Shown here: positions 12,441 through 25,080 of the stretch, in pieces
How positions within the stretch are numbered: position 1 is the stretch's first letter
Layout of the letters: the number at the start of each line of letters is the position of its first letter
Virus record (IMG/VR): IMGVR_UViG_3300008114_000203
Location: 1 to 39,577 of that record
Origin: a virus
Direction: 5' to 3' (one strand)
DNA length: 39,577 nucleotides
The notes under the pieces: model-generated
Told to the model about the DNA's origin: nothing
Database searches by the model: none
Seen by the model: the letters and a program-made list of their open reading frames with translations, nothing else
Made by a program: the position numbers and the translations under genes

Positions 12441-12479
12441 AATGGGGTCTTGACGGATCCCATTTCCTTTTGATAAGAT
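12441..12479 (+). promoter_or_regulatory. sigma70-like promoter with inverted repeat around the -35
   Basis: TTGACG (12450-12455), 18 bp, TAAGAT (12474-12479), upstream of the DUF932 gene. AATGGG (12441-12446) and CCCATT (12459-12464) are inverted arms enclosing the -35. Confidence 0.6.
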
Positions 12480-13443: not shown

Positions 13444-13472
13444 TACAATCGGGGGTACCGCAAGGTGCCCCC
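13421..13472 (+). promoter_or_regulatory. sigma70 promoter with downstream GNRA-loop hairpin
   Basis: TTGACA (13421-13426), 17 bp, TACAAT (13444-13449), starting inside the DUF932 coding end. Directly after it, GGGGGTACC-GCAA-GGTGCCCCC (13451-13472) is a 9-bp hairpin with one G-U pair and a GNRA tetraloop. It has no T-tract, so it looks more like a 5' stabiliser or read-through block than a classical terminator. Confidence 0.7.
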
Positions 13473-15912: not shown

Positions 15913-16093
15913 GATAAATGCGTACTGGTACGCCAGGGGATACTACGATGGTAGATCCGAGGGTGTTGAACATGGTAGCGACCTGGCACCCCGTGCTAGG
16001 TCTGCCTACGAGCAGGGATATCAAGCAGGGGTGTCAGACCATTGTGTACTGGATATGAACGATGGTGTTGACAAACAGAAAGAAACGGTTTAA
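15905..16093 (+). CDS. Small hypothetical phage protein
   Basis: 62 aa. NAYWYARGYYDGRSEG (residues 5-20) and AYEQGYQAGVSDHC (35-48) form two copies of a Y-x-x-G-(Y/x)-x-x-G pattern known from small phage proteins. GGAGAAGACA upstream. Its last codons overlap the next promoter (16068). Unknown function. Confidence 0.78.
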   Translation: MVEINAYWYARGYYDGRSEGVEHGSDLAPRARSAYEQGYQAGVSDHCVLDMNDGVDKQKETV

Positions 16094-16096
16094 TAT
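16068..16096 (+). promoter_or_regulatory. sigma70 promoter
   Basis: TTGACA (16068-16073), 17 bp, TAATAT (16091-16096). The -10 and flank (TTTAATATnGnnTCAC) recur at 16632 and 17239, so three successive genes share nearly the same promoter. Confidence 0.8.
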
Positions 16097-16126: not shown

Positions 16127-16588
16127 ATGGGTTATTATGTTCGCGGTGACAGCTACAACTTCAAGCTGGAAGCTGGTCAAGAAGATGCGATTCGTGCAGC
16201 TATTCGTGAGTTGAACACGCACGATGAACTGAAGAACGGTGGTCAATCAAAAGCTGGTGTGACTGTGGAAAAATGGTTCAGCTGGATGAACGACTTCCCT
16301 TATGACAAGGATTTCACCACGGTTGAACTGCTTGAGCGTATCGGGTTCGATGATGTTGATACCGATGAAGAAGGCAACATCATTCACCTGTTCTATGACG
16401 GCAAGACTGGTCAGGAAAACCTGTTCCTTGCAACGCTTGCACCGTTCATCGAAGATGGTAGCATCATCGAATGGAAAGGTGAAGAAGATGAACGCTGGCG
16501 CTGGGTGTTCGAGGGTGGTGAGATGTTCCACGAGGAAGAGGACAGCGAACCGCATTATACTCGAACTGGTGTGGTAAAAGCATTCTGA
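16127..16588 (+). CDS. Hypothetical early phage protein
   Basis: 153 aa, MGYYVRGDSYNFKLEAGQED onward; acidic, with VEKWFSWMNDFPYDKDF near residue 45 and a final strand pair (ERWRWVFEGGEMFHEEED). Similar proteins occur in other phages' early regions without function. Monocistronic: own promoter upstream and terminator immediately downstream. Confidence 0.83.
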   Translation: MGYYVRGDSYNFKLEAGQEDAIRAAIRELNTHDELKNGGQSKAGVTVEKWFSWMNDFPYDKDFTTVELLERIGFDDVDTDEEGNIIHLFYDGKTGQENLFLATLAPFIEDGSIIEWKGEEDERWRWVFEGGEMFHEEEDSEPHYTRTGVVKAF

Positions 16589-16598
16589 ACGATTCGTG

Positions 16599-16637
16599 AA
16601 AGCCCCACTTGACTGTGGGGCTTTTTCGTTTTAATAT
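16599..16637 (+). promoter_or_regulatory. Fused terminator/promoter, copy 1
   Basis: Stem AAAGCCCCAC (16599-16608) and GTGGGGCTTT (16615-16624) with T-tract terminates the 16127 gene. The six-base loop is TTGACT (16609-16614), which is the -35 of the next promoter; 17 bp later comes TAATAT (16632-16637). So the 3' arm and T-tract are the promoter spacer. Confidence 0.85.
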
Positions 16638-16665
16638 GGTTTCACATTCACAAAGGGAGTAGATT

Positions 16666-17199
16666 ATGCCTAACTGGTGCAACAACATTGTCACCCTGAC
16701 ACACGAAGACCCTGCTCAGATCAAACGAGTGGTGGATTCGCTTCAGGTCGGTCTGTTCAACGAGTTCATTCCGATGCCCGACCAGCTCCGCAATACGGAA
16801 ATGTCCACCGCCACGCCTGAAGAAGTGTACGAAAAGAATGTCCAGGATTGTGGTTATCCGAGCTGGTATGAGTTTGCGATTGCCGAATGGGATACCAAGT
16901 GGGATGCCTGTACGCCTGAAATCTTGGCTCAGACCGACACTTCCATCAAGCTGGTTTTCGACACCGCATGGTCGCCACCGATTGCAGTATTCGACAAGCT
17001 CCATGAACTTGGCTTCGATGTTGAAGCATACTACCACGAAGGTGGTATGGCATACTACGGTGAATACATTGATGGTACTGATAATGGTGGGCAGTATGAT
17101 GGTACTTCACGCAAGGCATTGCGTGACACCTGTCCTGAGCATATCATCGAAATGTTCACGCTCGAAGACTGGTATGATGAGGAAGACGAAGCTGAATGA
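16666..17199 (+). CDS. DUF1281/YubB-type ferredoxin-like domain protein
   Basis: 177 aa. The opening MPNWCNNIVTLTHEDP, the central EWDTKWDA near residue 83, LVFDTAWSPPIAVFDKL near 102-118, and the end with EAYYHEGGMAYYGEY are hallmarks of the DUF1281 (YubB ferredoxin-like) family found in phages and plasmids. No enzymatic role is established. Monocistronic between two fused terminator/promoter elements; ribosome binding site AGGGAG. Confidence 0.9.
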   Translation: MPNWCNNIVTLTHEDPAQIKRVVDSLQVGLFNEFIPMPDQLRNTEMSTATPEEVYEKNVQDCGYPSWYEFAIAEWDTKWDACTPEILAQTDTSIKLVFDTAWSPPIAVFDKLHELGFDVEAYYHEGGMAYYGEYIDGTDNGGQYDGTSRKALRDTCPEHIIEMFTLEDWYDEEDEAE

Positions 17200-17205
17200 T
17201 TCATT

Positions 17206-17244
17206 AAACCCCCACTTGACGGTGGGGGTTTTTTGTTTTAATAT
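17206..17244 (+). promoter_or_regulatory. Fused terminator/promoter, copy 2
   Basis: Stem AAACCCCCAC (17206-17215) and GTGGGGGTTT (17222-17231) plus T-tract. The six-base loop is TTGACG (17216-17221), the -35 of the next promoter; TAATAT follows at 17239-17244 after 17 bp. Same design as at 16599 with different stem bases. Confidence 0.85.
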
Positions 17245-17268
17245 GGTTTCACCAACTGGGAGAACAGT

Positions 17269-17442
17269 ATGAAATTGCTTATTGAACGCACCTTGTATTC
17301 GGTCATTGAGGTTGATATCAAAGACGAGTCGGAAATAAATGCTATCATAGCATCTGCTGAGCGTGGTGAATATGATGAAGCGTTTGATGAAATGGGTAGT
17401 AATGAAAATAGCGGTTATTCCCTTGTGGAGATTATCGAATGA
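17269..17442 (+). CDS. Small acidic protein
   Basis: 57 aa, MKLLIERTLYSVIEVDIKDE then an acidic helix (EYDEAFDEMGSNEN). ACTGGGAGAACAGT ribosome binding site. ATGA overlap with the next gene. Unknown function; a beta-alpha small domain like several neighbours. Confidence 0.75.
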   Translation: MKLLIERTLYSVIEVDIKDESEINAIIASAERGEYDEAFDEMGSNENSGYSLVEIIE

Positions 17443-18098: not shown

Positions 18099-18142
18099 GT
18101 CAATAAGTGGGGCGCGGTGTCCCACCAAACGGGAGCAAAACA

Positions 18143-18418: not shown

Positions 18419-18460
18419 TCATCTGATACAATGTTCATAGGTGGGGCATACCGCCCCACC
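18404..18460 (+). promoter_or_regulatory. sigma70 promoter with hairpin at the predicted mRNA 5' end
   Basis: TTGAAA (18404-18409), 17 bp, TACAAT (18427-18432). The expected start (about 18439) coincides with GGTGGGGC-ATACC-GCCCCACC (18440-18460), an 8-bp perfect hairpin that would cap the transcript 20 nt ahead of ATG 18480. Confidence 0.75.
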
Positions 18461-19365: not shown

Positions 19366-19401
19366 CGGGGTGGTTGACACCCCGATTCATTGTGATATGA
19401 T
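19366..19401 (+). promoter_or_regulatory. sigma70 promoter with -35 inside an inverted repeat
   Basis: TTGACA (19374-19379), 16 bp, TATGAT (19396-19401). CGGGGTG (19366-19372) and CACCCCG (19378-19384) pair around a five-base loop GTTGA, so the -35 spans loop and arm. Confidence 0.8.
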
Positions 19402-19666: not shown

Positions 19667-19790
19667 AGATATCGTCAATACCCTGAAAGAGCGTGGATAC
19701 CCTGTCATTCAGGCAATCATCATGGACAATATGTGGTATGTGCTGTGGTCAAGACCTAGAGAAGGGAATCTATATCATGGTCGAAGCTGA
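19659..19790 (+). CDS. Small protein overlapping a zinc-finger-like frame
   Basis: 43 aa, MSKDIVNTLKERGYPVIQAI, then IMDNMWYVLWSRP. TAGGAGAACGTA is a strong ribosome binding site for ATG 19659. From 19693 on, another frame encodes a cysteine-rich protein; the two may be one gene broken or joined by a frameshift. Confidence 0.55.
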   Translation: MSKDIVNTLKERGYPVIQAIIMDNMWYVLWSRPREGNLYHGRS

Positions 19791-21123: not shown

Positions 21124-21163
21124 GCTTACAACGAAAAGACCCACCCCGTCAACAGGGTGGGTC
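21124..21163 (-). promoter_or_regulatory. Fused terminator/promoter on the minus strand
   Basis: Minus strand stem GACCCACCC (21163-21155) and GGGTGGGTC (21146-21138) followed by TTTT. The eight-base loop is TG-TTGACG, so the -35 (21152-21147) is again in the loop. A -10 candidate TGTAAG (21130-21125, spacer 16) is weak. It separates the 21186-21706 unit from the gene starting at 21082. Confidence 0.65.
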
Positions 21164-21706: not shown

Positions 21707-21878
21707 GGTTTATCTCCCAATGTGGCTTGGCGGATGTGCCTCACCTATGACCAGTATAGCCACCAATCTTGAACATTGTCTGAACGACTTTTAGACCCTA
21801 TTGCTTTTGTCCGAGATAGGACTATACTGTTCACAGGTCAAGGCAATTCCGCCTGACCACATTGGGAGATAAACCATG
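21704..21878. repeat. 31-bp inverted repeat of the leaders of two divergent genes
   Basis: 21704-21734 and 21848-21878 are inverted copies matching at 28 of 31 positions, ending exactly at the two ATG codons and including the ribosome binding site (GGGAGATAAACC). The two leaders therefore share sequence beyond what ribosome binding needs. Confidence 0.85.
21801..21828 (+). promoter_or_regulatory. sigma70-like promoter
   Basis: TTGCTT (21801-21806), 16 bp, TATACT (21823-21828), driving the 21876 gene. On the opposite strand TATACT (21758-21753 region) with a weak CAGACA-type -35 could serve the 21706 gene. Confidence 0.6.
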
Positions 21879-24343: not shown

Positions 24344-24372
24344 AATATAACCCAAATAACGGCTTATGTCAA
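24344..24372 (-). promoter_or_regulatory. sigma70 promoter
   Basis: Minus strand TTGACA (24372-24367), 17 bp, TATATT (24349-24344). GGCTT (24375-24371) and AAGCC (24365-24361) are short inverted arms over the -35, again inside GGGGCTTGACA. Drives the 24317-22833 unit. Confidence 0.75.
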
Positions 24373-24414: not shown

Positions 24415-25080
24415 ATGAATGACTTTATTAAAAACCTTGTTAACTATGTGATCGAAGCCAAAATTACGAACTACCGTGGCGATCAGAGCGCAGAAACCTA
24501 CCGTTTGTCCCGAATCAACCGTGAAATAAGCCCATCGGATGCCCCAGCCGACAAAGGCTCGAAATTCGCCAAAATCAATGCCGATTATAAAGAAGAAAAA
24601 CGCCTAGAACGCGCCCCTCGCGGTCCACAGACCCGTAAAAAGCCAATGGAAGAAGGCACAAAGTATGCAATTAGAGTACCAGCACAAGTAAAAGAACCTG
24701 TACGTGACACATCATCAGGTCAAGTAAAGTATGGTATTAAAGTACCAGCGAAACCTCAAGAAGAACCTGTACGTGACACATCATCAGGTCAAGTAAAGTA
24801 TGGTATTAAAGTACCAGCGAAACCTCAAGAAGAACCTAAAAAACCAGAACCCAGAAGAGGTTATTTGGTTCGTAAGCCAGTGGAAGAAGGCGCACAGGTT
24901 CCAAAGGGTGCAGTCACTGGTCCAGTACGTCAACCAACCATTATTCAGAAGCAACAAACCGCAAACCCGTCTTCATCTGGTTCAACACTCCCACTTGGTA
25001 AGAAAAAGGTAGGAGATCCAGCAAGCAGAGCAGACTGGGCTGCTCGTAAAGCTGCAATGGACAAGGCGATTGACGGCTAA
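24415..25080 (+). CDS. Putative virion-associated protein with tandem repeats
   Basis: 221 aa, basic. MNDFIKNLVNYVIEAK at the N-terminus is an amphipathic helix ending in E-A, similar to capsid-targeting peptides cleaved after Glu. The centre has two identical 23-residue repeats (PVRDTSSGQVKYGIKVPAK and four more) plus a degenerate third (TKYAIRVPAQVKE). The end (ASRADWAARKAAMDKAI) is a basic helix. CTGGAG precedes the ATG. Late virion role is inferred from context. Confidence 0.78.
   Translation: MNDFIKNLVNYVIEAKITNYRGDQSAETYRLSRINREISPSDAPADKGSKFAKINADYKEEKRLERAPRGPQTRKKPMEEGTKYAIRVPAQVKEPVRDTSSGQVKYGIKVPAKPQEEPVRDTSSGQVKYGIKVPAKPQEEPKKPEPRRGYLVRKPVEEGAQVPKGAVTGPVRQPTIIQKQQTANPSSSGSTLPLGKKKVGDPASRADWAARKAAMDKAIDG
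24697..24834. repeat. Perfect 69-bp tandem duplication
   Basis: 24697-24765 and 24766-24834 are identical at DNA level including synonymous positions, so the duplication is recent or kept uniform. It encodes two 23-residue units within the 24415 gene. Confidence 0.92.

Follow-up and report, generated by a model that had tools for sequence, protein, structure and literature searches.

T4-type phages reportedly carry, repeated before their small variable genes, elements in which a host-like promoter is joined to a stem-loop (the PeSL, ascribed to Arbiol 2010 and Comeau 2014), and the repeat copies could, it is said, serve recombination. In ordinary intrinsic (Rho-independent) terminators a G+C stem with a short loop is followed by a T-tract and stands after a stop codon. 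PeSL, for promoter-early stem-loop, are cited in PMC4503421 as composite promoter-terminator motifs of T4-type phages. Single-molecule work has found that, once intrinsic termination has occurred, RNA polymerase usually remains on the DNA and can re-initiate at promoters close by (PMC6978380, PMC6978322).

We have analyzed a window of 39,577 nucleotides, an incomplete virus record. Because it encodes NrdA, NrdB, ThyX and a T4-type exonuclease (phrog_107), and because an overlapping 64-kb contig adds a UvsX-like recombinase, an SbcC-like subunit, a primase, a DnaB-like helicase and a DNA polymerase, we place the phage in the T4 superfamily. Like PeSL, the elements described here occur in a T4-type phage, combine an early-type promoter (by consensus) with a stem-loop (by folding) and are repeated. 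They share stem, short loop, T-tract and post-stop position with ordinary intrinsic terminators, but differ from them in that the loop doubles as the -35 box of the next promoter. With a probability of about 0.77, we read the element as a fused intrinsic terminator and host-type sigma-70 promoter, a space-saving arrangement that insulates single early genes. The first two elements and their surroundings are:

16068 to 16096, plus strand: promoter of the preceding gene, TTGACA-17-TAATAT, with the same -10 and leader cassette and no hairpin.
16127 to 16588, plus strand: 153-aa gene (phrog_38862, function unknown) lying upstream of the first element.
16585 to 16645, plus strand: copy 1 of a duplicated 61-nt cassette (copy 2 at 17192-17252, 89% identical).
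16599 to 16631, plus strand: predicted terminator of copy 1, serving the gene that ends at 16588; 10-bp stem, read at 16599-16624 as AAAGCCCCAC-TTGACT-GTGGGGCTTT, then the T-tract TTCGTTT.
16609 to 16637, plus strand: predicted sigma-70-type promoter of copy 1; -35 TTGACT (the terminator loop), 17-bp spacer, -10 TAATAT at 16632-16637.
16666 to 17199, plus strand: gene between the elements, 177 aa, with a weak DUF1281_C/Api92-like match just under the Pfam cut-off.
17206 to 17238, plus strand: predicted terminator of copy 2, serving the gene that ends at 17199; read at 17206-17231 as AAACCCCCAC-TTGACG-GTGGGGGTTT, then the T-tract TTTGTTT.
17216 to 17244, plus strand: predicted promoter of copy 2; -35 TTGACG (the loop), 17-bp spacer, -10 TAATAT at 17239-17244.
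17269 to 17442, plus strand: gene downstream of the second element, 57 aa, matching no family above cut-off.

The sequence-only reading had described 10-bp stems, TTGACT and TTGACG loops and a TAATAT after 17 bp at 16599-16637 and 17206-17244, with stop and start signals packed into about 39 bp; re-reading the letters returns the same geometry and the same packing. The 17-bp spacer consists, in both copies, of the terminator's 3' arm and T-tract. The hairpins begin 10 nt (copy 1) and 6 nt (copy 2) after the stop codon and fold at -22.8 kcal/mol (z -5.9 against shuffles) and -22.0 kcal/mol (z -4.5), respectively; a possible U-G pair in copy 2 would leave a loop of 4 nt. Both copies thus have the make-up of an intrinsic terminator, that is, a stable G+C hairpin and then a U-tract just 3' of a stop codon. 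Both also have that of a sigma-70 promoter, with hexamers within the usual 16-18 bp of each other and TTGACT/G-17-TAATAT agreeing with the consensus at 9 of 12 positions, although promoter strength is uncertain because TAATAT agrees with TATAAT at 4/6 only. Transcription from copy 1 is predicted, by consensus, to start near 16644. Downstream of the -10, GGGAG follows after 17 nt (copy 1) and 13 nt (copy 2), and the next ATG after 28 and 24 nt. In the infected cell the terminator would stop transcription and the promoter would fire, both probably early. An N4-type single-strand hairpin promoter was also considered and is unneeded given the sigma-70 spacing and the T-tract.

The two copies are direct repeats of 61 nt that start at the upstream gene's end and extend past the -10, and because they are 89% identical they count as one event. 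This qualifies two earlier statements. The two tandem cases are both real, but stem from a single duplication, and further cases at 12450 and 19374, with a partial one at 21152 on the minus strand, had been overlooked. The pairing is indeed kept while the sequence changes, but the change amounts to a single compensated pair, G-C becoming C-G, between duplicates, which is weak alone. A 35-nt repeat also links copy 1 to the preceding gene: 16086-16120 matches 16627-16661, the -10 and leader of copy 1. As to a role of the cassettes as recombination points, the 61-nt repeat is 89% identical, and the single indel observed between contigs has its junctions elsewhere. At that indel (window 19740-19742) two otherwise identical contigs, L083 and L084, have about 390 bp extra (L083 8803-9193), in which one small gene ends and the next begins, together with a terminator and a promoter; the window junction shows short microhomology and may be a natural deletion or an assembly difference.

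We scanned the window for stems of at least 7 bp that enclose a TTGAC -35 in their loop and have a T-rich tail, the full motif having in addition a -10 at 16-18 bp, and took 300 dinucleotide-preserving shuffles of the window as the chance baseline. Four full motifs were found (12450, 16609, 17216 and 19374) against a mean of 0.007 per shuffle; dropping the -10 requirement gives five, adding 21152 minus, against 0.09. Besides the two copies these are:

12441 to 12479, plus strand: third composite element, AATGGGGTC-TTGACG-GATCCCATT, T-rich TTCCTTTTG, -10 TAAGAT, spacer 18.
19366 to 19401, plus strand: fourth composite element, CGGGGTG-GTTGA-CACCCCG, weak T-tract, TTGACA-16-TATGAT, the -35 being split between loop and 3' arm.
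21138 to 21163, minus strand: terminator-like hairpin whose loop contains TTGACG; a good -10 is missing and the promoter is doubtful.

None of the three elements at 12450, 19374 and 21152 has a stem related to those of the two copies. All the window cases sit at 12-22 kb, a region of small genes, and scanning the rest of the overlapping 64-kb contig, outside the window, gave none. A hairpin at 24372 on the minus strand was discarded, its fold being no better than shuffles, and an Rfam search of the window gave no match.

A second class of hairpin lies between the -10 and GGGAG in the 5' leaders of small genes, for example GGTGGGGCATACCGCCCCACC, and is possibly mRNA-stabilizing or translation-related:

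13451 to 13472, plus strand: leader hairpin.
18107 to 18125, plus strand: leader hairpin.
18440 to 18460, plus strand: leader hairpin, coordinates approximate.
21838 to 21860, plus strand: leader hairpin, coordinates approximate.
21740 to 21720, minus strand: leader hairpin, coordinates approximate.

Elsewhere in the window, a 221-aa gene (24415-25080) has a near-identical internal repeat at 24726-24837, seen in the protein as the repeat VRDTSSGQVKYGIKVPAKPQEE.

Other phages share the geometry: scanning viral contigs for the pattern CCCS-N-TTGAC-NN-SGGG-N-TTTT reveals it in many environmental phages, with at least 120 matches. Since the scans fix CCCS/SGGG, TTGAC and TTTT, they are biased by construction and their counts are no census; nor are raw counts the argument, because a control pattern, identical but for the scrambled loop CAGTT, gave 99 matches in a complete viral scan. 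What separates the two is the -10: a -10-like hexamer stands at 16-18 bp in 50/81 of the distinct TTGAC matches listed and in 2/55 distinct CAGTT controls (Fisher 3e-13, uncorrected for relatedness), and among the TTGAC matches listed the best -10 hexamers cluster at 17 and 18 bp. For bacterial genomes, among the matches listed, a -10 lies at 16-18 bp in 21/120, against 6-8/120 at other spacings.

Downstream of the viral matches lie several unrelated genes, including cyanophage psbA, a DUF7227 gene, and an hli-like and a helicase-like gene. Three Synechococcus phages have TTGACA in the loop of terminators with differing stems: S-SM1, S-SM2, where hli03 follows, and S-IOM18, where a DNA adenine methylase gene follows; Enterococcus phage SAP6 offers a similar, less regular case. 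The elements before hli03, dam and uncultured psbA share our geometry, with a TTGACA loop, arm and T-tract as spacer, and a -10, but have other stems, genes and hosts. In one uncultured cyanophage psbA region (L212:10678-10857) the Rfam PhotoRC-II RNA follows close downstream of the composite element and does not overlap the hairpin. Among the bacterial downstream genes, judged by eye from translations, are mraZ (Burkholderiales) and dnaK (alphaproteobacterial assemblies). In Burkholderiales and relatives (L412, L445, L447, L484, L499, L504, L517) a G+C hairpin with a T-tract encloses the -35 of the mraZ promoter in its loop; GTGG repeats resembling MraZ sites follow. The dnaK cases (L406, L473, L523; two of the assemblies carry the title Alphaproteobacteria and the third encodes a near-identical DnaK) combine a TTGAC-loop hairpin, a T-tract and CTATATT, 6-9 nt past the upstream stop codon.

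Among better-known T4-type phages, the strong promoters of RB49, KVP40 and Aeh1 are often hairpin-associated, T4 being the exception. The arrangement differs from ours: in RB49 and Aeh1 the hairpin mostly encloses the -10 or precedes the -35, whereas the window hairpins enclose the -35. Of 143 strong RB49 promoters, 16 have the -10 in a loop, eight a hairpin upstream and one the -35 in a loop; Aeh1 is similar, again with one -35 in a loop. The strict motif with a T-tract is absent from RB49 and Aeh1 when searched by the same script. In RB49 early promoters (L095, L104) hairpin and promoter are often fused in another way, with the loop enclosing the -10, as in CGGGAGTAGTAAGATACTCCC. No full motif was found in T4, KVP40, RB49, Aeh1, HMO-2011 or four environmental relatives, save one marginal case in G004; the core-gene relatives G003, G006 and G007 lack the -35-in-loop geometry. 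About 2.3 Mb from relatives gathered by their nrdA or DUF932 protein yielded almost no cases, and a megablast search with the region matched no named phage. The literature searched, which did not extend to the original PeSL papers, yielded no description of a -35 in a terminator loop, and the exact geometry may already be described in those papers. The window element is best read as the PeSL idea of T4 phages in a different geometry; it is real, and among known composite promoter-terminator elements it is probably a variant that saves space.

Covariation of the stems around an unchanging TTGAC, which had been proposed as a check in related phages, is strong in orthologues of the DUF7227 gene, with TTGAC kept. 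These come from another phage group than the window phage; no diverged relatives of the window's own copies were found, contigs with the same early genes being all identical. The DUF7227 relatives were gathered by protein only, and their 37 distinct upstream regions contain 20 distinct 26-nt hairpin segments. Standard pairs make up 95.7% of the stem pairs (80.8% when shuffled) and the covariation score is 0.385 (0.112 when shuffled), slid registers coming nowhere near; changes on both sides are seen in 5/7 stem pairs, to some of which the stem-less outlier L655 contributes. The TTGAC loop is present in 18/20 segments. In L629-L632, with the loop TTAATC, stem and T-tract are retained and the -10 is gone, that is, the terminator was kept and the promoter lost; L662 likewise retains the terminator, with the loop GTTT. 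L655 is the converse, with TTGAC and -10 retained and the stem gone. Terminator and promoter are thus lost separately, and the two functions are therefore separable; by sequence, loop conservation goes with the promoter and not with the hairpin.

These separate losses bear on the possibility that the two halves are coupled, with a polymerase that releases its RNA in the T-tract re-initiating in cis, or blocking the promoter while paused, so that expression of one gene would set expression of the next. A polymerase that terminates a few bp short of the -10 would be covering the promoter, and post-termination recycling, as published, is compatible with this and offers a possible mechanism (PMC6978380, PMC6978322). 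That recycling was, however, studied on separate terminators and promoters, with sliding over hundreds of bp, which makes exact overlap unnecessary (PMC6978380, PMC6978322); moreover, the sequence does not require a hand-over, space saving alone accounting for the geometry, and promoter and terminator are lost independently in the DUF7227 orthologues. We regard coupling as unlikely. We are similarly skeptical of the broader proposal that the -35-in-loop arrangement, as seen before psbA, hli, mraZ and dnaK, is a recurrent regulatory class of phages and bacteria, one where termination would pass the polymerase directly to the next promoter or gate that promoter.

That the element is only a terminator, with the TTGAC loop and TAATAT as relics or coincidence and the next gene served by read-through or another promoter, would fit the 4/6 match of the -10, the TTGACG loop at 21152 minus with no good -10 and the many pattern matches that lack a -10. 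We nevertheless give it little credence, as four motifs with a proper -10 stand against 0.007 expected, and the same -10 and leader occur at 16068 behind a full TTGACA. A protein operator, an inverted repeat over the -35 box with no RNA hairpin, is suggested by the G/C-run richness of all the window stems and by the recurrence of GTGGGG, but is very improbable: the inverted repeats lie just 3' of stop codons and have T-tracts, stem sequences vary between copies, and the DUF7227-gene orthologues show compensated pair changes. Chance followed by one duplication draws on the single origin of the two copies in one 61-nt cassette; the excess over shuffles and the -10 spacing in viral matches make it unlikely, and with the independent stems at 12450, 19374 and 21152 and the cases in other phages and bacteria we consider it barely credible.

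Under the fused terminator-promoter that we prefer, the terminator would end the gene just finished and the sigma-70 promoter would start the next, the loop serving as the -35 box and the 3' arm and T-tract as the 17-bp spacer ahead of the -10. Each small, separately transcribed early gene would be insulated and transcription restarted within about 40 bp. Economy is the most likely reason: the fusion would cost nothing and give insulated single-gene units. As the loop sequence is nearly free and arm plus T-tract naturally measure 16-18 bp, such a geometry could arise and persist repeatedly. It provides a searchable rule for fused stop-start elements, TTGAC in a terminator loop and 17 bp to the -10, which separate terminator and promoter predictors would report as unrelated sites. 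The elements would be natural constructs for asking whether a polymerase, having just terminated, starts again on the spot, and could serve as a compact part in genetic circuits; they precede genes as important as cyanophage psbA and hli and bacterial dnaK and mraZ.
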